Below, piece after piece: positions 21,338 to 60,421 of a DNA stretch of 64,000 bases; the first letter of the stretch is position 1; every line of letters starts with the position of its first letter. Origin of the DNA: Pseudomonadota bacterium (GTDB lineage: Bacteria > Verrucomicrobiota > Verrucomicrobiia > Limisphaerales > SXTU01). Below the pieces are notes generated by a model. The model was not told the DNA's origin. It was given only the letters and a program-made list of their open reading frames with translations, and did not search any database. The translations under genes were made by a program, and so were the position numbers. The stretch is from NCBI GenBank assembly GCA_009922615.1, contig RFVF01000001.1:62001-126000 (forward strand). The letters are read 5' to 3'.

Positions 21338-23818
21338 ATGAATTTGATTGTCGTCATCGGAACGCTCGCCGCGTCCGCCACCGCGCTGGTCGGCGCGCCG
21401 GTGGATTACGGGAAGGAAATCCAGCCGTTGCTCGCGCAGAATTGTTACCAGTGCCACGGCGTGACGCAGCCGAAGCGCGGCCTGCGGCTGGACACGGCGG
21501 CGTTCGCGCTCAACGGCGGGCAGAGTGGTCCGGCCATCAAACCCGGCAAGTCGTCCGACAGTCTGCTGGTGCAGGTCATCTCCGGCACGCACAAGGACCT
21601 CACGCGGATGCCTTACAAGAAGCCGCCGTTGTCGGACGCGCAAATCGCGCTGGTGCGCCGGTGGATTGACGAAGGCGCAAGGGCCCCGGCGAACGAAGTG
21701 CCGGGGAGCAAGGTGCATTGGGCGTTTGTCGCACCGAAGCGGCCTGAAGTGCCGGAAATTCGCAATTCGCAATTCACAATTCGCAATTCCATTGATGCCT
21801 TCATTCTCGCCCGGCTCGCGAAGGAGAAGCTCACGCCTTCCCCCGAGGCCGACCGACCCACGCTCATCCGCCGGCTCTCGCTGGACTTGCTCGGCTTGCC
21901 GCCCAAGCCGGCGGAGGTGGACGCGTTTGTGAATGACACTTCGCCAGATGCTTACGAGAAGCTGGTCGAGCGGTTGCTCGCGTCGCCACACTATGGCGAG
22001 CGCTGGGGCCGCTGGTGGCTGGATGTGGCGCGCTACTCGGACTCGAACGGCTACTCGATTGACGCGCCGCGCAGCATTTGGCGCTACCGCGATTGGGTCA
22101 TCGCCGCGCTGAACCGCGATCTGCCCTTCGACCAGTTCACCATCGAGCAGCTCGCCGGTGACCTCCTGCCCAACGCGACCTTGGAACAGAAAGTTGCGAC
22201 TGGTTTCCATCGCAACACGCAAATCAACCAGGAAGGCGGCATTGACAAAGAGCAGTTCCGCCTCGAGTCCGTCGTGGACCGCGTGAACACGACGGGCGCG
22301 GCGTGGCTCGGGTTGACCATTGGCTGCTGCCAGTGCCACGACCACAAGTTCGATCCGCTTTTGCAGAAAGAGTATTACGGCCTCTTCGCGATGCTGAACA
22401 ACCAGGACGAGCCGGACTTGCCGCTGACGACGCCGGACGAGACGAAGCGCGTCGCCGACATCGAGGCGAAGGTGGCGGCCTACATTACCGACCTGTTCAA
22501 GAAGGACGCGGATGTCGTTGCGCGCGAGTTGAAGTGGGAGGCCAGCATGACGCCCGAGCAACGGCAGGCCATGCCGCAGCTCTGGCGCGAAATCTTCGAC
22601 GTGCCCGCCGCCCAGCGCACCGACGCGCAGAAGCTCGTGATGGTCACGTCGTTTGTGGAGAACGCACCGGAGAACAAGACGCATCAGGCCGCCATCAAGA
22701 AGTTCCGCGCCGAGAAGCCAAAGGTGGAAACCACGATGGTGCTGCGCGAGTCCGCCAAACCCCGCCGCACTTACCTCCACATCAAGGGCGACTTCACCCG
22801 CGACGGCGGCGATGTGAAGGCGCATTTCCCCGCCGCGCTGCACGCCGCCAAAGCTCCTGCCGACCGCGAGCCCAACCGCCTCGACCTCGCGCAGTGGCTT
22901 GTGGACGACGCGAACCCGCTGACCGCGCGCGTGCTGGTGAACCGCGTCTGGCAGCAGTATTTCGGCAAGGGCCTTGTGGACACCGAGAACGACTTCGGCA
23001 CGCAAGGCTCGCTGCCTTCGCACCCCGAGTTGCTCGACTGGCTCGCGGTCGAGTTCAAGCAACCGACCGCCAAACCCAATTCCCCTGCTCCCATTGCCTA
23101 TTCCCTGAAAGGCCTGCACCGCCTCATCGTCACGAGTGCGACTTACCGCCAATCCTCCGCGGCGCGCTCCGACCTTGCCCGCGTGGACGCGAATAACAAA
23201 CTCCTCGCCCGCCAGAACCGCCTGCGGCTCGACGCCGAAATCGTCCGCGACGTGAGCCTCACCGCCAGCGGCCTGCTCACGACCACGCTCGGCGGCCCTA
23301 GCGTGTATCCGCCCATCCCCAACGGCGCGTTGGACCTCGGCCAGCGCAAGCAACCCTGGCCCACCAGCACCGGCCCTGACCGCTACCGGCGCGGCCTTTA
23401 CACGTTCCACTTCCGCGCAACGCCGCCGCCGGCCATGAGCGTCTTCGACGCGCCGGACGGCTACAGCACCTGCACGCGCCGCATCCGCAGCAACACGCCG
23501 CTGCAAGCCCTCGCGCTACTCAACGACGCGGCTTACTTCGAGTTCGCCGAAGGTCTGGCCACGCGCGTGCTCAAGGAAGTTCCCGCCAGCGATTCGGCCC
23601 GTCTCGAACACGCCTTCCGCCTCTGCCTCGCGCGCAAGCCCAGTGCCGGCGAAGCCACGCGCCTCGGCGACTTGCTCAAAGGCGAACTCGCCGCCGTGAC
23701 TGATGCCGAAGCCAAATCCGTAAAAGCCCCAGCCGGTGTGGAGCCAAAGCAATTCGCCGCGTGGACGACCGTGGCGCGGGTGCTGTTGAATTTGGACGAG
23801 ACGATTACGAGGGAATGA
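21338..23818 (+). CDS. Planctomycete-type cytochrome c / DUF1549 / DUF1553 protein (PSD1 family)
   Basis: NCYQCHG heme motif, RRLSLDLLGLPPKPAEVDAF, GCCQCHDHKFDP, NRVWQQYFGKGLVDTENDFG, HRLIVTSATYRQSS. Confidence 0.95.
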   Translation: MNLIVVIGTLAASATALVGAPVDYGKEIQPLLAQNCYQCHGVTQPKRGLRLDTAAFALNGGQSGPAIKPGKSSDSLLVQVISGTHKDLTRMPYKKPPLSDAQIALVRRWIDEGARAPANEVPGSKVHWAFVAPKRPEVPEIRNSQFTIRNSIDAFILARLAKEKLTPSPEADRPTLIRRLSLDLLGLPPKPAEVDAFVNDTSPDAYEKLVERLLASPHYGERWGRWWLDVARYSDSNGYSIDAPRSIWRYRDWVIAALNRDLPFDQFTIEQLAGDLLPNATLEQKVATGFHRNTQINQEGGIDKEQFRLESVVDRVNTTGAAWLGLTIGCCQCHDHKFDPLLQKEYYGLFAMLNNQDEPDLPLTTPDETKRVADIEAKVAAYITDLFKKDADVVARELKWEASMTPEQRQAMPQLWREIFDVPAAQRTDAQKLVMVTSFVENAPENKTHQAAIKKFRAEKPKVETTMVLRESAKPRRTYLHIKGDFTRDGGDVKAHFPAALHAAKAPADREPNRLDLAQWLVDDANPLTARVLVNRVWQQYFGKGLVDTENDFGTQGSLPSHPELLDWLAVEFKQPTAKPNSPAPIAYSLKGLHRLIVTSATYRQSSAARSDLARVDANNKLLARQNRLRLDAEIVRDVSLTASGLLTTTLGGPSVYPPIPNGALDLGQRKQPWPTSTGPDRYRRGLYTFHFRATPPPAMSVFDAPDGYSTCTRRIRSNTPLQALALLNDAAYFEFAEGLATRVLKEVPASDSARLEHAFRLCLARKPSAGEATRLGDLLKGELAAVTDAEAKSVKAPAGVEPKQFAAWTTVARVLLNLDETITRE
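21757..21790. repeat. Heptamer array AATTCGC x4 (one AATTCAC) + partial, inside the PSD1 ORF
   Basis: direct reading; translated in-frame as EIRNSQFTIRNS. Confidence 0.9.
23075..23109. repeat. Degenerate heptamer array (CCCAATT)(CCCCTGC)(TCCCATT)(GCCTATT)(CCCTGAA) inside the PSD1 ORF
   Basis: 7-bp periodicity; same family as 18729-18763; translated PNSPAPIAYSLK. Confidence 0.7.
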
Positions 23819-40145: not shown

Positions 40146-40427
40146 GGTCCAAGGTCCACGAGTCCAAAGTCCAAAGTTGTGCGGACGAGGATGCCGGTTG
40201 GCGAAAGGACGCGATGAACTGAGTGGCCGATCTCCCTCACTTCGGCCCTCGCCCGCTGGGAGAGGGACCAGCCGATTGAAACGACTGCGGGCTGACGTTC
40301 TCCCTCTCCCCGCGGGCGAGGGCCGGGGCGAGGGAGAAAGCACGGTTGAACCCACAAACCCCGACACGCCCACGCCTTGCGGCCTTGGTCAGTAGACCTT
40401 GGACTTTGGACCTTGGACTTTGGACTC
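40146..40427. repeat. Composite inverted repeat: outer GTCCAAG heptamer arrays, inner 37-bp SPAGRG-type arms
   Basis: 40146-40176 vs 40396-40427 inverted 7-bp arrays; 40231-40267 vs 40301-40337 inverted arms with 33/37 identity. Confidence 0.9.
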
Positions 40428-41652: not shown

Positions 41653-42416
41653 TGAAAACGGTCGAGGGGCGAGGGTCCAGAGTCTAGCGCAGGACTGGCT
41701 GGACCCTCGGCTTTCGACTCTCGACTTTCGACCCGCTTCACTGGCTCATCGCTCGCGATGTTCCCGTCCAGAATCCGCACGATGCGGCGGGCGTGGAGCG
41801 CGACTTTTTCCTCGTGCGTGACGACGATGATGGTGTTGCCCTTGCTCGCGAGTTCGTCGAACAGCGCGAGGATTTCCACGCCGGTTTTGGAATCGAGGTT
41901 TCCGGTCGGCTCATCCGCGAGCAGAATGGATGGCGAATTCACCAGGGCCCGCGCGACCGCGACGCGTTGGCGCTGGCCGCCAGACAGCTCGTTTGGCCGG
42001 TGATCTACGCGGTCGGCCAAGCCGACGGCGGCCAACGCAGCGAGCGCCTTCTCGCGCCGTTCATCCGGAGAGACGCCGGCGTAAACCATCGGCAGCTCGA
42101 CATTGCGCAGGGCCGTGGCGCGGGCGAGCAGGTTGAAGGTCTGGAAGACGAAGCCGATCTCGCGGTTGCGGATTTCGGCGAGCTCGTTGTCGTCACGATG
42201 GCTGACGTCCGTGCCGTTCAACTCGTAGGTGCCGCTCGTCGGCGTGTCGAGGCAGCCGAGGAGGTTCATCATCGTGGATTTGCCCGAGCCGCTCGGCCCC
42301 ATGATGGCGACGTATTCGCCGCGCTCGATGGAGAGCGAGACGCCGCGCAATGCGTGGACGGTCTCAGCGGCCATCTGGTAGCTGCGCCAGATGTTGTGGA
42401 GGTGAATGAGGCTCAC
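41649..42416 (-). CDS. ABC transporter ATP-binding protein (LolD/MacB type)
   Basis: [46 protein letters not shown]. Confidence 0.96.
41670..41734. repeat. 11-bp hairpin + TCGACTY heptamer triplet within the 3' end of the ATPase gene
   Basis: CGAGGGTCCAG (41670-41680)/CTGGACCCTCG (41699-41709); (TCGACTC)(TCGACTT)(TCGACCC) 41714-41734. Confidence 0.8.
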
Positions 42417-46108: not shown

Positions 46109-46474
46109 ACGCGCACTCGGTTCGCCACAGCGTGACGTGGTGAAGCGTCGCGCCGCCCATCCAAACGGGACGGGTCGGTTTTCTACACGGGGTGAACGTG
46201 GGTGGCGCACGCGCGCTCCCAGAGGATCGCCCTTCCCCATGCCTGCGAGGTTAGCTGACGGGCTGGACCTGGAAAGTGGCCCCGGTGACCTCACCGTTCG
46301 CCCCGGTCCGGTTGTCCGGACGTTGGGTTCCCCGCTCGCGGCCTCGGGAAGGAGGCCGCGATTCGGCTGCGGGCGAAGCATTCGCACATTCCCACGGCTC
46401 TGTCAAATCGCTCGCCCAGCTCCTGACGCCTGCGATGTTCACGCCGACATGGGAAGAGGGACCGCCGTTTTTCT

Positions 46475-54213: not shown

Positions 54214-57200
54214 TTGCCCTGCATGAATTTGGTCCGCCTCGCCCTCCGCCGCCCGCTCTCGGTCGTGGTCGGTGTCATTGCCATCGCGCTCGCAGCGTGG
54301 ATCGGGCTTCAGCGCATGACGCGCGATGTCTTTCCGCCGCTGGGCATCCCGACCATTTACGTCGCGCAGCCCTTCGGCGGCATGGACCCCGCGCAGATGG
54401 AGGGGTTCATCACTTACTACTACGAATACCACTTCCTCTACATCACGGGCATCGAGCACGTGGAGTCCAAGAGCATCCAAGGCGCGAGCATCATGAAGCT
54501 CCAGTTCCACCCGGGCACGGACATGTCATCCGCGTTGTCCGAGGTGGTCGCCTACGTGAACCGCTCGCGGGCCTTCATGCCGCCGGGCACGCCGGGGCCG
54601 TTCATCACGCGCTTCGACGCCGGCAGCGTGCCGGTCGGCTACCTCGTGTTCTCGACGACCAACGCCAACCGCACGGTCGGCGAGATGCAGAACGCCGCGT
54701 TGAATCAGGTGCGCCCGCTCTTCGCACCGTTGCCGGGCGTGTCCGCACCGCCGCCGTTCGGCGGCAGCGCGCGGACCATTCTCATCAACCTCAAGCCTGA
54801 CCGGCTTCGCAGCTACGGCGTGTCCGCCGATGAAGTGGTTTCCGCCATCAGCGCGGCGAACACCCTCAGCCCGTCCGGCAATCTCCCACTCGGCGACAAG
54901 TATCCCTTCGTCCCGGTCAACGCGGTGGTGAAGAACATTCAAGACCTCGCTGCCGTGCCCATCCGCACGGGCACCGGCGTGGGCGGCGGCTCCGTCTTCG
55001 TGCGCGACCTCGGCGACGTGGCCGACGGCGCGGACATCGTCACCAGCTACGCGCTCGCGAATGGCAAGCGGACCGTTTACATGCCCGTCACGAAGCGCTC
55101 GGACGCCAGCACGCTATCGGTCGTCGAACTGGTGAAGAAGAACATCCCCGAGTTCAAGAAGGTGCTGCCCGACGACATTGAGGTTACCTACGAGTTCGAC
55201 CAGTCGCCCTACGTAGTGCGCGCCATCCGCGACCTCGTGAAGGAAGGCGCGCTCGGAGCCGTGCTGACGGGCCTGATGGTGCTGCTCTTCCTGCGTGACT
55301 GGCGCAGCGCGTTCATCGTGGTCATCAACATCCCCATCGCGCTGCTGGCCGGGACGTTCGCGCTGTGGATGAGCGGGCAGAACATCAACCTGATGACGCT
55401 CGGCGGCCTCGCGCTGGCCGTCGGTATCCTCGTGGATGAAGCGACGGTGGCAATTGAGAACATCCATGTGCATCTGGCACGTCGTCGCCCACTCGCCCGT
55501 GCCGTCCTTGACGCCACAGTGGAAACCACCGGCCCGCGACTGCTCGCAATGCTGTGCGTGCTCGCTGTCTTCATCCCGGCGTTCTTCATGCAAGGCGCGG
55601 CTAAGGCGCTCTTCACCCCGCTCGCACTGGCCGTGGGTTTCTCGATGGTCGCAAGCTTCGTCCTGTCGAGCACCTTGGTGCCAGTCTTGAGCGTTTGGTT
55701 TCTGCGCGGGCACGAATCAGACGTAGCAGAAGAAAAGGGTTCGTCCGCTTACGTTGCATTGCTTCGTCCGCTCCTCGCCGCTCGCTGGCTCGTTACGCCC
55801 ATTTACCTCGCCGTCGCCCTCGGCGGCCTCTGGCTGCTCGCGCCGCGCCTCGGCACCGAGATTTTCCCCAAGGTGGACGCCGGACAAATCCAGCTCCGTC
55901 TCCGCGCCACGCCCGGCACGCAGCTCGAAAAGACCGAGGCCATCGCCCTCCGCGTGCTCGACCTCATCAAGCGCGAGGCCGGGGCGGACAACGTCCAGAT
56001 GAGCATCGGCCTCGTCGGCGTCCACGCGGCAAACTACCCGGTCAACCTCATCCACCAGTGGAACGCGGGCCCGGAGGAAGGCGTGCTGCAAATCCAGTTC
56101 AAGCCCGGCTCCGTCCGCACCGAACCGCTCAAGGAAAAGCTCCGCGCCACCTTCAAGGCAGAGTTGCCCGACGTGCTCGTCAGCTTCGAGCCGAGCGACA
56201 TTGTCGAGCGCGTGATGAGCTTCGGCGCGCCGACGCCCATTGAGATTGCCGTGCAAGGCCAGAGCCTCGCCGCGAGCAAGGAATTTGCCGACAAACTCCG
56301 CGAGCGGCTGGCGAAGATTCCTTCGTTGCGCGATCTCCAGTTCGCCCAAGTCCTCGACTACCCGACGCTAGACGTGAACATCAACCGCGAGCGCGCTGGC
56401 CTGCTTGGCGTGCGGATGAGCGATGCCACGAAATCGCTCGTTGCCAGCACCGCGAGCAGCCGTTTCACCGTGCCGAACTACTGGGCCGACCCGGCGAGTG
56501 GTATCGCTTTCAGCGTGCAGGTGCAGGTGCCGCAAGGCCGCGTGAGCACGGTCGAGGAATTCAAGAACACGCCCGTCACCACCGCTGGCGGCAAGGCCAC
56601 GCTCCTCCGCAACATCGCCAACCTGAGCGAAGGCACCGCGCCGCAAACCTACGAGCGCTACAACCTAATGCGCGTCGTCTCGCTCACCGCAAACATTCAC
56701 GGCTCCGATCTCGGCAGCGTTGCGAAGGCCATTCACGCCGCCATCAAGGAAGTCGGCGCGCCGCCCGCCAAGACAAGCGTCGCCGTCCGTGGGCAGATTC
56801 CGCCGATGGAGGAGATGTTCAACGGACTCCGCACCGGCCTGTTGCTCGCCCTGGTCGTTATCTTCCTGCTGCTCATGGCGAACTTTCAGTCCGTGCGACT
56901 CGCGCTCGTGGTCGTGTCCACTGTGCCCGCCGTGCTCGCGGGCGTTGCGCTCACGCTCTGGCTTACGCACACAACGCTGAACATCCAAAGCTTCATGGGG
57001 GCCATCATGGCCGTGGGCGTGGCCGTGGCGAACGCCATCCTGCTCGTGACCTTCGCCGAGCGCGCCAGAGTAGGACAGGCTTCCAGCTTGTCATCCATTC
57101 AGAACTCCCCCGCCCAAACGGCGAACGCGGCCGATGGAAAAAGTCAGAAGTCAGGCAAGCTGTCTGACCTACTTGGAGCCTCCCTCACCGGCGCGAACTC

Positions 57201-57456
57201 CCGCCTTCGCCCCATCCTGATGACGAGCTTCGCGATGATGGCTGGCATGTTGCCCCTCGCCCTCGGCCTCGGTGACGGCGGCGACCAGACCGCGCCCTTG
57301 GGCCGCGCCGTCATCGGCGGCCTCGCCGCCGCGACGCTCGCCACCCTTTTCATCCTTCCATCCGTCTTCGCCGTAGTGATGACCGGCAAGCACACCCGCT
57401 CCGCCAGCCTCGACCCGGACGACGCGAACAGCCCGCAGTTCAATGCCGCCAAATGA
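54214..57456 (+). CDS. RND efflux transporter permease (AcrB/Czc-like)
   Basis: SVVVGVIAIALAAWIGLQRM, GGLALAVGILVDEATVAIENIH, SFVLSSTLVPVLSVWFL, RLRPILMTSFAMMAGMLPLALG. Confidence 0.95.
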   Translation: MPCMNLVRLALRRPLSVVVGVIAIALAAWIGLQRMTRDVFPPLGIPTIYVAQPFGGMDPAQMEGFITYYYEYHFLYITGIEHVESKSIQGASIMKLQFHPGTDMSSALSEVVAYVNRSRAFMPPGTPGPFITRFDAGSVPVGYLVFSTTNANRTVGEMQNAALNQVRPLFAPLPGVSAPPPFGGSARTILINLKPDRLRSYGVSADEVVSAISAANTLSPSGNLPLGDKYPFVPVNAVVKNIQDLAAVPIRTGTGVGGGSVFVRDLGDVADGADIVTSYALANGKRTVYMPVTKRSDASTLSVVELVKKNIPEFKKVLPDDIEVTYEFDQSPYVVRAIRDLVKEGALGAVLTGLMVLLFLRDWRSAFIVVINIPIALLAGTFALWMSGQNINLMTLGGLALAVGILVDEATVAIENIHVHLARRRPLARAVLDATVETTGPRLLAMLCVLAVFIPAFFMQGAAKALFTPLALAVGFSMVASFVLSSTLVPVLSVWFLRGHESDVAEEKGSSAYVALLRPLLAARWLVTPIYLAVALGGLWLLAPRLGTEIFPKVDAGQIQLRLRATPGTQLEKTEAIALRVLDLIKREAGADNVQMSIGLVGVHAANYPVNLIHQWNAGPEEGVLQIQFKPGSVRTEPLKEKLRATFKAELPDVLVSFEPSDIVERVMSFGAPTPIEIAVQGQSLAASKEFADKLRERLAKIPSLRDLQFAQVLDYPTLDVNINRERAGLLGVRMSDATKSLVASTASSRFTVPNYWADPASGIAFSVQVQVPQGRVSTVEEFKNTPVTTAGGKATLLRNIANLSEGTAPQTYERYNLMRVVSLTANIHGSDLGSVAKAIHAAIKEVGAPPAKTSVAVRGQIPPMEEMFNGLRTGLLLALVVIFLLLMANFQSVRLALVVVSTVPAVLAGVALTLWLTHTTLNIQSFMGAIMAVGVAVANAILLVTFAERARVGQASSLSSIQNSPAQTANAADGKSQKSGKLSDLLGASLTGANSRLRPILMTSFAMMAGMLPLALGLGDGGDQTAPLGRAVIGGLAAATLATLFILPSVFAVVMTGKHTRSASLDPDDANSPQFNAAK
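57070..57171. repeat. VGQASSLS-type inverted repeat with AGTCAGA/AGTCAGG units inside the RND gene
   Basis: GTAGGACAGGCTTCCAGCTTGTC ... AGTCAGAAGTCAGGCAAGCTGTCTGACCTAC; translated in-frame. Confidence 0.75.
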
Positions 57457-59069
57457 ACGCACCCATGAAAGCTCAACCTGTTCTCCTTCACCCTCACCCT
57501 CTTTCGCTGGGAGAGGGAACAGCCCCGCGCACGCTTGATTTTTCCCCGCGCACAGTTCCGCTCTACCGCTGGTTGCGATTCACCCTCTCCCAGCGGGAGA
57601 GGGTCGGTGTGAGGGAGAAAGTGTTGCTAGGTTTGAGTATAGCGGTTGCGCTGTTGAGCACTGCCTCTTGCTTGGCTCAGACAACTTACTCGGGCGCGGG
57701 CGCGAGCGGTGGCAGTAGCGCTCCCACCGTCCGCGTCGCCACGCCCACGCGCGGCGATGTCCACCGCTTCGTCGCGCAGCCCGGGACCATCCGGCCGCTC
57801 CAGCAGGCCACGCTCTACGCACGCCTGCCTGGCTACGTCAAACGCATCGCGGTGGACAAGGGCGACGCCGTCAAGGCCGGCGCGCTCCTCGCCGAACTCG
57901 ACGCGCCCGAGTTGGCCCTCGACCTCGCCCGCGCGCGCGGCGAGTTCGCCAAGGCCAGAGCTGACGTCGCGCGCGCTAGCGCGGAACTCGCGAAATCCCA
58001 GGCCGACATTGCCCGAACGCATGCCGAGGTCGCGCTCGCTAAGGCCGGCGCGCACAAGGCCGAGGCCGAGTTGCACGCGGCCATCGCCGTCGCCGCACGC
58101 GCGCAGGCGGAACTGCCCAAGGCTCAAGCCGAGGTGAATGTCGCCCGGCTTGACTACGACCGCCTCACCGAGGGGCGCCGCAAGGCCCCCGACCTCGTCG
58201 TGCCCGCGCAAGTGGACGCGGCGAAGGCACGCCTCGACACCGCGACCGCGCAAGTCGGCGTGCTCCGCGCCGCTGCCGAGGCTGCGGCTGCCGAAGCCGA
58301 GGCCGCGAAGGCTCGGCGCGCCGGAAGCGAGGCCAGCATCCAAGCCGCGAGTGCCCAGGCCGAAGCCGCGAAGGCCAGCCACGAGGCTGCGCGCGCCGTG
58401 GTCGGAGCATTTGAGGCGGCCGTGGAAGTGGCGCAGTCCGCGATGCAACGCACTAGCACGCTCGCGGACTTCACGCGCCTCACTGCGCCGTTTAGCGGCG
58501 TCGTCACCGCGCGCTTCGTGGACCTCGGCGCGTTTGTCCCCGCCGCCACGGCGGGCAACGCCGCGCAGAACGCGGCTGTCGTCACGCTCATGGACTTCGA
58601 CACCGTGCGCGTGCAGGTGCCGATGACGGAGCTTGAGGCCGGCTTCGTCGCGAAGGGCCAGCCGGTGAAGGTCGCGCTCGACGGCCTGCCCGGCAAAATC
58701 TTCGAGGGCACGGTCACGCGCTTCGCCGGCGCGCTGGATGAGGCCACGCGCACGATGCTCGTCGAGGCCGAGCTGCCGAATCCCGGCCACGCGTTGCGCC
58801 CCGGGATGTATGCCACCGTGCGCGTGGGCGTGGAGAAGCACACGAACGTCCTGCTCGTGCCGAGCGAGGCGCTGGTGATGGAGAAAGCGAACGCGTTTGT
58901 CTTCTTGGCAGATGGCAGCAAGGCGAAGAAGACGCCGGTAAAGATTGGCTTCAACGACGGGGCGAAGGTGGAAATAGTCTCCGGTCTCGCGGAGACGGCG
59001 AAGGTGATTCTCATTGGGAAGATGACCTTGGCGGATGGGCAGGTGGTCAACGTGCAGGAGGGCAAGTGA
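57453..59069 (+). CDS. RND periplasmic adaptor (HlyD family), N-terminus extended by an in-frame repeat
   Basis: GTIRPLQQATLYARLPGYVKRIAVDKGDAVKAGALLAELD; Ala-rich coiled coil; probable functional start at GTG 57621 (signal peptide VLLGLSIAVALLSTASCLAQ). Confidence 0.92.
   Translation: MNAPMKAQPVLLHPHPLSLGEGTAPRTLDFSPRTVPLYRWLRFTLSQRERVGVREKVLLGLSIAVALLSTASCLAQTTYSGAGASGGSSAPTVRVATPTRGDVHRFVAQPGTIRPLQQATLYARLPGYVKRIAVDKGDAVKAGALLAELDAPELALDLARARGEFAKARADVARASAELAKSQADIARTHAEVALAKAGAHKAEAELHAAIAVAARAQAELPKAQAEVNVARLDYDRLTEGRRKAPDLVVPAQVDAAKARLDTATAQVGVLRAAAEAAAAEAEAAKARRAGSEASIQAASAQAEAAKASHEAARAVVGAFEAAVEVAQSAMQRTSTLADFTRLTAPFSGVVTARFVDLGAFVPAATAGNAAQNAAVVTLMDFDTVRVQVPMTELEAGFVAKGQPVKVALDGLPGKIFEGTVTRFAGALDEATRTMLVEAELPNPGHALRPGMYATVRVGVEKHTNVLLVPSEALVMEKANAFVFLADGSKAKKTPVKIGFNDGAKVEIVSGLAETAKVILIGKMTLADGQVVNVQEGK
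57481..57619. repeat. SPAGRG-type inverted repeat in the adaptor N-terminus
   Basis: 57481-57518 vs reverse complement of the arm ending 57619 (31/38); similar arms at 40231-40337. Confidence 0.85.
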
Positions 59070-60421
59070 ATTTTTCAGTTTTCAGTTTTCAGTTTTCAGT
59101 GACGGAATGCCGGCGACTGCCGGTTGCTGTGCTGCTTGGCTTTGCCCTAACAACGAGGGCCGCGACAAACCAGCCCATTGACCTCCCCACCACGCTCAAG
59201 CTCGCCGGCGCGCAAAACCTCGATGTGCAAATCGCCCGCGAGCGGTTGCGCGAGGCGGAGGCACAGCGGGATGAGGCCATCTACAACTTCTTCCCGTGGG
59301 TAACGCCCGGCGTCGGCTATCGGCGGCATGACGGCCGGATTCAGGACGTGACCGGCAATCTCTTCGACACGAGCAAGCAGCAGCTCACGCCCGGCGTGAA
59401 TGTGGAGGCGCGGCTGGATTTGGGCGATGCGTGGTTCAAGGCGCTCGCCGCGAAGCAGCTCGCCAAGGCCGCCGATCACGCGGTCGCGGCGCAGGAGCAG
59501 GACACCACCACCACCGCCGCGCTTGGTTACTTCGACCTCGTCAAGGCTCGCGCGACCGGCGAGGTGGCGGAGGAGGCGACGCGGGTTGCCACGGCTTACG
59601 CGGATCAACTTCAACAGGGCGTGGCGCTTGGGCTCATCTTCAAAGGCGACGCCCTGCGAGCGCGCGGTCAAGCCGAGCGAAACCAACTCGCCCTCGAGCA
59701 AGCTCGCGAACAGCAGCGCATTGCCGCCGCCCGCCTCGCGCAAGTGCTCCGGCTCGACCCAGCCGTGAACCTCACGCCTGCCAACAGCGAACTGTTGCCG
59801 CTCACGCTGATCGCCACCAACGCCGCGCTGGATTCACTCGTGGCACAGGCGCTGAGCGCGCGGCCGGAGTTGAAGCAGGGCGCAGCACTGGCGAATGCCG
59901 CCGCAAAACAGCGTGACGCCACGACGGTCGGACCGTTGATTCCCAGCCTCGGCGCGCAGGGTTTCGTGGGGGCGCTGGGGGGCGGGCGGAACAACGACCT
60001 GGACAATTTCGGCGGTAGTTCAAGCGTCGCGCTCACGCTCGGCTGGCGCTTAGGCCCCGGGGGCATCTTCGACTCCGCGCGCGAGCGGACGGCGGATTCG
60101 CGTCTGCGTGCCACGGCCCTCGCCAACGACAAATTGAAGGACGACATCATCCGGCAAGTGGTCGAGGCGCACACGCGGGTGCATTCGCTGCGCGACCAGC
60201 TCGCGACGTTGCGTCGCGCGCTGGTGACGGCGGAGGAAGCGTTCCGGCTGACGCGTGAGCGCAAGGAACGCGGCATCGGCGTGGTGCTGGAGAACATTTT
60301 TGCGGAACAGGATTTGACCCGCGCACGCACGGACTTTCTCGCCGCCGTGGCGGAGGCGAACAAGGCGCAGTTCCTTTTGCTCCGCGCGCTAGGGCAGCCC
60401 GGGCTTGCGGCTTCGCCCTGA
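59066..60421 (+). CDS. TolC-family outer membrane efflux protein
   Basis: TLKLAGAQNLDVQIARERLREAEAQRDEAIYNFFPWVTPGVGYRR, long helical repeats; third gene of RND operon. Confidence 0.9.
   Translation: MNFSVFSFQFSVTECRRLPVAVLLGFALTTRAATNQPIDLPTTLKLAGAQNLDVQIARERLREAEAQRDEAIYNFFPWVTPGVGYRRHDGRIQDVTGNLFDTSKQQLTPGVNVEARLDLGDAWFKALAAKQLAKAADHAVAAQEQDTTTTAALGYFDLVKARATGEVAEEATRVATAYADQLQQGVALGLIFKGDALRARGQAERNQLALEQAREQQRIAAARLAQVLRLDPAVNLTPANSELLPLTLIATNAALDSLVAQALSARPELKQGAALANAAAKQRDATTVGPLIPSLGAQGFVGALGGGRNNDLDNFGGSSSVALTLGWRLGPGGIFDSARERTADSRLRATALANDKLKDDIIRQVVEAHTRVHSLRDQLATLRRALVTAEEAFRLTRERKERGIGVVLENIFAEQDLTRARTDFLAAVAEANKAQFLLLRALGQPGLAASP
59072..59099. repeat. Perfect tandem heptamer TTTTCAG x4
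   Basis: direct reading; translated as NFSVFSFQFSV at TolC N-terminus. Confidence 0.95.

Follow-up and report, generated by a model that had tools for sequence, protein, structure and literature searches.

Intragenic REPs have been reported in Opitutus terrae (Verrucomicrobia), including double inserts in two uvrA genes, and REPs have also been published as lying behind stop codons (Di Nocera et al. 2013, PMC3733652). The palindromic elements of Rickettsia persist in frame at sites where functional proteins tolerate them, according to what is cited from Ogata et al. (2000) in PMC2759123 and PMC3733652, and an enterobacterial repeat forms part of predicted signal peptides (PMC2759123). Heptameric repeats in bacteria show an excess of period 7, and most arrays of Xanthomonas and Nostoc lie no more than 50 bp downstream of a stop codon (PMC4692102). 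Orthologous signal peptides can be unrelated in sequence, with a turnover that in animals proceeds by point changes (Veitia and Caburet 2009, PMC2717928). The open-access literature gave nothing direct on heptamers that form signal peptides, and no report was found there of one orthologous signal-peptide slot refilled by different heptamers.

Three repeat families in an RND operon

The window, i.e. the whole stretch of 64,000 nucleotides analysed here, contains an RND operon of the tripartite CusA/HAE type, with an ACR_tran pump, a HlyD-type adaptor and an OEP outer-membrane factor (OMF) recognized by Pfam (Table 1), and belongs to a host genome of 5.5 Mb in 331 contigs that is 92.6% complete. 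Each of the three genes carries a different dispersed repeat family, namely a GTAG-tagged REP dimer in the pump gene, a CTCTCCC inverted repeat in the adaptor gene and a heptamer array in the OMF gene. This had been proposed in the first-pass annotation, and both the repeat search and the genome copy counts against controls bear it out. The earlier positions hold for the pump element (57070–57171, VGQASSLS-type) and for the OMF array (TTTTCAG x4, 59072–59099), and the adaptor element (57481–57619) is slightly wider than first drawn; all three repeats are in frame as claimed, the OMF array when read from GTG59066. Chance expectations within the window for the three repeat cores are 0.00, 0.01 and 0.19; the core TTTTCAGTTTTCAG has 3 matches against 0.00 expected, CCCTCTCCCAGCGGGAGAGGG has 5 against 0.01, and the REP core alone has 1 against 0.19. 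An Rfam search of the window gave no RNA family at the repeats; a c-di-AMP riboswitch (RF00379, 52.3 bits) is located at 46226–46378 on the minus strand.

Table 1. Genes and repeat features of the RND operon, in window coordinates.
Feature	Position	Strand	Assignment and remarks
RND pump gene	54223–57456	+	Pfam PF00873 ACR_tran, E = 1.2e-183; nearest solved relative CusA, 7.7e-78
GTAG-tagged REP dimer, in frame in the pump C-terminal loop (VGQASSLS...SDLL)	57070–57172	+	103 nt; inverted paired copies elsewhere in the genome
Periplasmic adaptor gene (HlyD_D23)	57453–59069	+	Pfam 6.1e-27; ATG57453 overlaps the stop of the pump gene; relatives keep ATG57465 as start
CTCTCCC...GGGAGAG inverted-repeat element, between adaptor start and predicted signal-peptide core	57474–57626	+	Arms 57474–57517 and 57583–57626
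3' arm segment GGGAGAGGGTCGGTGTGAGGGAGAAAG	57595–57621	+	Shine-Dalgarno-like GGGAGAGGG (57595–57603), then in-frame GTG57609 (VREK)
Predicted adaptor signal peptide, possible lipobox segment REKVLLGLSIAVALLSTASCLAQ	57612–57680	+	Translation; from hydropathy
Shine-Dalgarno-like AGGAGGG in the last adaptor codons, 5' of GTG59066	59056–59062	+	Sequence
Outer-membrane factor gene (OEP)	59066–60421	+	Pfam 1.5e-34; GTG59066 overlaps the adaptor TGA stop
TTTTCAG heptamer array, 4.1 copies, OMF codons 3–12 (FSVFSFQFS)	59072–59100	+	Tandem Repeats Finder, 100% matches
Diverged remnant of the dispersed TGCCGGCGACTTCCAGTCGCC palindrome, encoding CRRLPVAV of the predicted OMF signal peptide	59108–59131	+	Assigned by eye

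The pump element consists of two palindromes placed head to head in inverted orientation with a GTAG at each outer foot; a short palindrome with this tetranucleotide at its base (GTAGGACAGGCTTCCAGCTTGTC, reverse GTAGGTCAGACAGCTTGCCTGAC) identifies it as a REP. Exact copies of the core are found at five places in the genome, paired copies are common, near-identical pairs are present elsewhere, and a 0.83 Mb sample contains about 9 dispersed units, 4 of them within genes; the other paired copies in the genome are mostly about 77–185 nt. The insert site differs in seven close relatives, and the window has a net gain of 27 to 30 residues over those relatives that have no insert. The orthologues carry FAERARVSGSADANAASLEGA at this site, six of the relatives reading FAERARV/M-(S/T)G(S/D)...(E/T)GATSRLRP. 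A different insert, AGGILPAVEGRILPPG..., is found in L001 and a short one in L016, both at the same place, so the loop must be length-tolerant. The REP dimer is located in the length-variable loop ahead of the conserved RLRPILMT motif, which loop we take to be cytoplasmic by analogy with AcrB and CusA. As 103 nt is not a multiple of three, the net in-frame change must have involved loss of target bases or a later adjustment. A profile search for Y1_Tnp (PF01797) gave no match in the host genome (92.6% complete), and the element is therefore classed as a GTAG REP dimer rather than a REPIN accompanied by its RAYT; in the order as a whole, 81 of 97 genomes have Y1 tyrosine transposases of the RAYT superfamily. 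The REPs of this host may be relics, or may have been mobilised by a gene that is lost or unsequenced. Another locus of the same genome (L046, C6:8900-14200) has two adjacent UvrA-like ORFs with three in-frame REP dimers, together with the short heptamer-like segments NLKSQISNLK and IQNPESRIQN.

The arms of the adaptor element are 44 nt each, 80% complementary and 65 nt apart. Its core, the CTC motif, has 23 copies in the genome against 3 in the control, and its 24-nt end has 33 copies against none. The arrangement of GGGAGAGGG followed by GTG is repeated in other copies of the element, and GTG57609 is a possible element-borne start for the adaptor, as judged from the sequence. Among the close relatives, only L009 shares the element and its spacer with the window, without indels, indicating a common origin and an element older than the pump insert. 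The codon-position counts between these two in the adaptor extension are 7/4/7 with no third-position bias, so nothing shows that the extension is constrained as protein. Other palindrome-like repeats are found at the adaptor start in L003–L005 and L007, and plain signal peptides in L001, L002 and L006. In the host genome the CTC element also precedes probable signal peptides in L183 (MREKAFMTLAACLFAAASSFAA) and L199 (lipoprotein-like). The window has a second CTCTCCC inverted-repeat element at 40245–40426 with a GACCTTGGACTTTG array close behind, and a GACCCTCGACTTTC array at 41702–41734.

The TTTTCAG units in the OMF gene stand head to tail in more than the three copies that define a heptanucleotide SSR and are among the most clear-cut tandem repeats in the window; two consecutive units have 12 matches in the genome against none in the reversed control. 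A TTTTCAG array also precedes a probable signal peptide in L063 of the host genome (MKRRVFSFQFSVF...LLSLTGC). The TGCCGGCGACTTCCAGTCGCC family has 47 genome members against none in the control, and a longer form is found in the relative L007.

The repeat load was counted in the 0.83 Mb sample of the host genome, taken in stretches and with gene starts from a home-made caller. The 39 period-7 arrays, 9 REP units and 4 CTC units give 52 elements, or 0.39 expected per 6.2 kb, and the probability of at least three in such a stretch is about 0.007, so that about one is expected in 0.83 Mb. The first-pass annotation had regarded three insertions in one operon as telling, but the view that the combination is exceptional is rejected; it is roughly what the repeat density predicts somewhere in the sample, and the triple hit is therefore given no weight. 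That the insertions are independent is supported by the empty or differently filled sites in the relatives. Heptamer arrays of many units are in frame within housekeeping genes of the same genome, namely those for an rsmH-type methylase, the large subunit of exonuclease VII (xseA), recG, ubiE, a radical-SAM protein and a class-III aminotransferase, indicating that intragenic insertion is a general habit of this genome and not specific to the operon. Of the 11 intergenic arrays elsewhere in this genome, 7 start no more than 12 nt after a stop codon, against 1.2 expected (p=0.0005).

Period 7 accounts for 39 of the 51 tandem arrays in the sample, with many differing units and not one family. An AATTCGC array is located at window 21757–21789, in frame within a large gene (21338–23818) with the linker ...PEIRNSQFTIRNSIDAF..., and its product is presumably of the Planctomycete-cytochrome/PSD1 type. 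Three more host genes with a PEIRNSQFTIRNSIDAF-like linker bear arrays at the equivalent point (C113:113978, C288:84427 and C299:39130), and this shared array point suggests that arrays sprout from a pre-existing near-repeat.

Recurrence of arrays at the OMF start

Full weight is placed on the recurrence at one orthologous site, the OMF start. The survey comprised 96 distinct orthologous OMF loci from the host order and allied taxa, and the 230 nt that precede the mature protein were taken as the slot. A tandem array is present in the slot of 26 loci, and 29 slot arrays in 22 kb compare with 20 in the 252 kb of remaining operon and none in codon-shuffled sequence; since the loci are related, such counts exceed the number of independent events. 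The period is 7 in 25 of the 29, with at least 10 unit sequences. In the 87 loci where both junctions are covered, period-7 arrays occupy the OMF slot in 23 and the adaptor start in 6 (Fisher p=0.0009), and not one was found in the 153 kb of adaptor and OMF gene bodies. The OMF start overlaps the TGA in 91 of the 96 loci, 64 of which also have a Shine-Dalgarno-like motif, and the distance between start codon and slot array is mostly 1–10 nt, which places these arrays immediately after the adaptor stop. No usable start is found downstream of the array in L002, L003 and L012.

Among the nearer relatives the OMF start carries TTTTCAG in L001 and L002, TGTTCAG in L003, L004, L007 and L008 (degenerate in L005), the inverted pairs CCAATGA/TTGGTCA in L006 and ATCCGAA/TTCGGAT in L011, an octamer in L012 and inverted AGCACCA/TTGGTGC arms in L016. 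As at the pump site, the peptides encoded by the repeats are not conserved in repeat-free relatives, which have unrelated signal peptides; the orthologue comparison thus agrees with the first-pass annotation. Several repeat families are stacked at the OMF start of L093 and L008, a heptamer array followed by palindromic elements such as PHPGPLPRGEGE. A pump tree, intended to show when the array types arose within the genus, gave no resolved branching order.

Array orientation and possible origins of the filled slot

Whichever of the three frames of a strand is read, a heptamer array encodes one and the same cycle of seven residues, since 7 and 3 have no common factor, and therefore only the strand matters. 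In the slot arrays near the mature protein the sense strand is the more hydrophobic one in 20 of 20 cases, against 8 of 25 in other gene bodies of the host genome (p=1e-6). With only those arrays counted that are stop-free on both strands, the numbers are 7 of 7 in the slot and 4 of 12 in gene bodies (p=0.013), and when each unit sequence is counted once the hydrophobic orientation is found in 10 of 10. In L011 and L016 a hydrophilic arm is followed by its hydrophobic complement, which is the order of n-region and h-region. Of all the observations, this orientation bias speaks most strongly for arrays that are translated and then screened as protein. From hydropathy and translation, the repeats at the OMF start would form part of the predicted signal peptide. 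The most hydrophobic window is in most array loci directly behind the array, which should thus contribute the front part of the signal peptide more often than the core. The idea that the array always constitutes the hydrophobic core was dropped, as just 4 loci have an overlap of at least 50% with the core, and in three of these the repeats are not heptamers.

We consider it probable that gene-packed junctions leave the front of the signal peptide as the only free slot, and that repeats in this slot are filtered by export function. Repeats of the three dispersed kinds would enter or grow almost anywhere but be retained only where little damage results. The genes of the operon touch or overlap, leaving no intergenic DNA, and the one weakly constrained stretch at each junction would be the ~10 codons that follow the upstream stop and make up the front of the next signal peptide. 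A repeat in the slot would be translated within the signal peptide, for the OMF probably from GTG59066, and would survive only if the frame stays open and the export signal works, presumably as a neutral rather than a beneficial sequence; the constant hydrophobic orientation of the heptamers near the core is expected if only export-competent repeats survive. The slot would be refilled during evolution, with different heptamers in different lineages, and the pump REP dimer would have found its place in a length-tolerant loop instead. The heptamer arrays are absent from the 153 kb of adaptor and OMF bodies, yet are found, mostly in hydrophilic form, within genes elsewhere in the genome, which fits purifying selection on the sites of persistence. 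The excess of filled OMF slots over adaptor slots is not predicted by a plain slot model; one possibility is that fewer junctions with a Shine-Dalgarno motif and an overlapping TGA are present at the adaptor. It is a tentative and rather doubtful extension of the model that the arrays constitute a renewable source of signal peptides, with ready-made n-region and h-region modules repeatedly replacing the OMF export signal across the order; they could serve as such modules because the cycle is the same in all frames, and because an inverted pair with the purine-rich arm first reads as hydrophilic and then hydrophobic.

The repeats could also be part of an untranslated 5' leader and, as intergenic DNA, be mis-read as protein, with the true starts at GTG59099 for the OMF and, for the adaptor, at GTG57609, where the element would provide the Shine-Dalgarno. 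GTG59099 would yield a short OMF signal peptide without the array (VTECRRLPVAVLLGFALTTRA) and GTG57609 would skip most of the adaptor element (VREKVLLGLSIAVALLSTASC); both products are plausible signal peptides, which counts against the junction-slot model, and a simple codon-usage caller placed both starts downstream (57672 and 59129). The missing codon-position constraint in the adaptor extension points the same way, as does the caution of Di Nocera et al. (2013, PMC3733652) that REPs at N-termini are in many cases extragenic, and for the adaptor alone the leader is the better reading. As an account of the filled slot it is unlikely, since the Shine-Dalgarno-like AGGAGGG precedes GTG59066, nearly all loci have the TGA-overlapping start, several relatives have no later OMF start, and a bias towards the hydrophobic orientation is hard to square with untranslated DNA. 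A selected benefit, in which the repeats are kept to tune translation, mRNA processing or signal-peptide strength and so give differential expression within the operon, is less probable still. Effects on mRNA structure, which the first-pass annotation had suggested, are possible for the very stable adaptor hairpin (−74 kcal/mol, z = −6.3), and weakly indicated for the REP dimer (z = −2.6); the RNA fold of the heptamer array is ordinary (z = −0.6) and gives no sign of them. The fourfold more frequent filling of the OMF slot would suit a benefit, and 7-nt arrays can change in length and then frameshift the OMF (phase variation), but neither unit sequence nor copy number is conserved, most relatives have no array, and heptamers are found in unrelated housekeeping genes (rsmH, xseA, recG, ubiE) as well.

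The suggestion that the insertions are targeted to junctions and loops stands as far as the positions are concerned, with two inserts just behind stops that overlap or nearly overlap the next start and one in a loop, but active targeting is not needed. That mobile-element machinery recognizes the sequence of the operon or of stop/start junctions is very improbable: the arrays do hug stop codons and Y1 transposases are frequent in the order, but this genome, 92.6% complete, has no detectable Y1_Tnp, three unrelated repeat classes would require the same targeting, and arrays occur inside genes too. A preference for stop codons is expected without targeting if 5' flanks are constrained.

Comparison with described repeat systems

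Over dozens of genomes the OMF slot offers a natural experiment in which export signals would be rebuilt from arbitrary DNA, and it also illustrates how gene-dense operons make room for repeats of selfish or slippage origin. For annotators it is a caution that segments such as FSVFSFQFS, LSQRERVGVREK and EIRNSQFAIRNS in predicted proteins are repeat-derived.

The pump part is already known in kind, as intragenic GTAG REP dimers have been described in Verrucomicrobia (PMC3733652). Like the GTAG-class REP dimers and REPINs of that study, the element has GTAG at its outer ends and head-to-head palindromes, is dispersed and is in frame within genes, and the uvrA-like locus with several REP dimers in the host genome resembles the case of Opitutus terrae; unlike them, it has no RAYT-type Y1 transposase detected in the same genome, and its host gene is an RND pump. 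With the Rickettsia elements, as far as these are described in the papers that cite them, the operon shares palindromic repeats in frame at tolerant protein positions, but sequence and lineage are different, and here several families and tandem heptamers are combined in one operon. The isolated enterobacterial cases (PMC2759123) differ from the present one, in which a single orthologous slot holds many unrelated units across an order. The heptamers agree with those of PMC4692102 in the period-7 excess and in the proximity to stop codons, which is found in this genome as well, and differ in the many units per genome, the frequent in-frame genic arrays and the signal-peptide orientation bias. 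As in PMC2717928, orthologous signal peptides have no kinship in sequence, but there the turnover is by point changes and here it is by repeat replacement.
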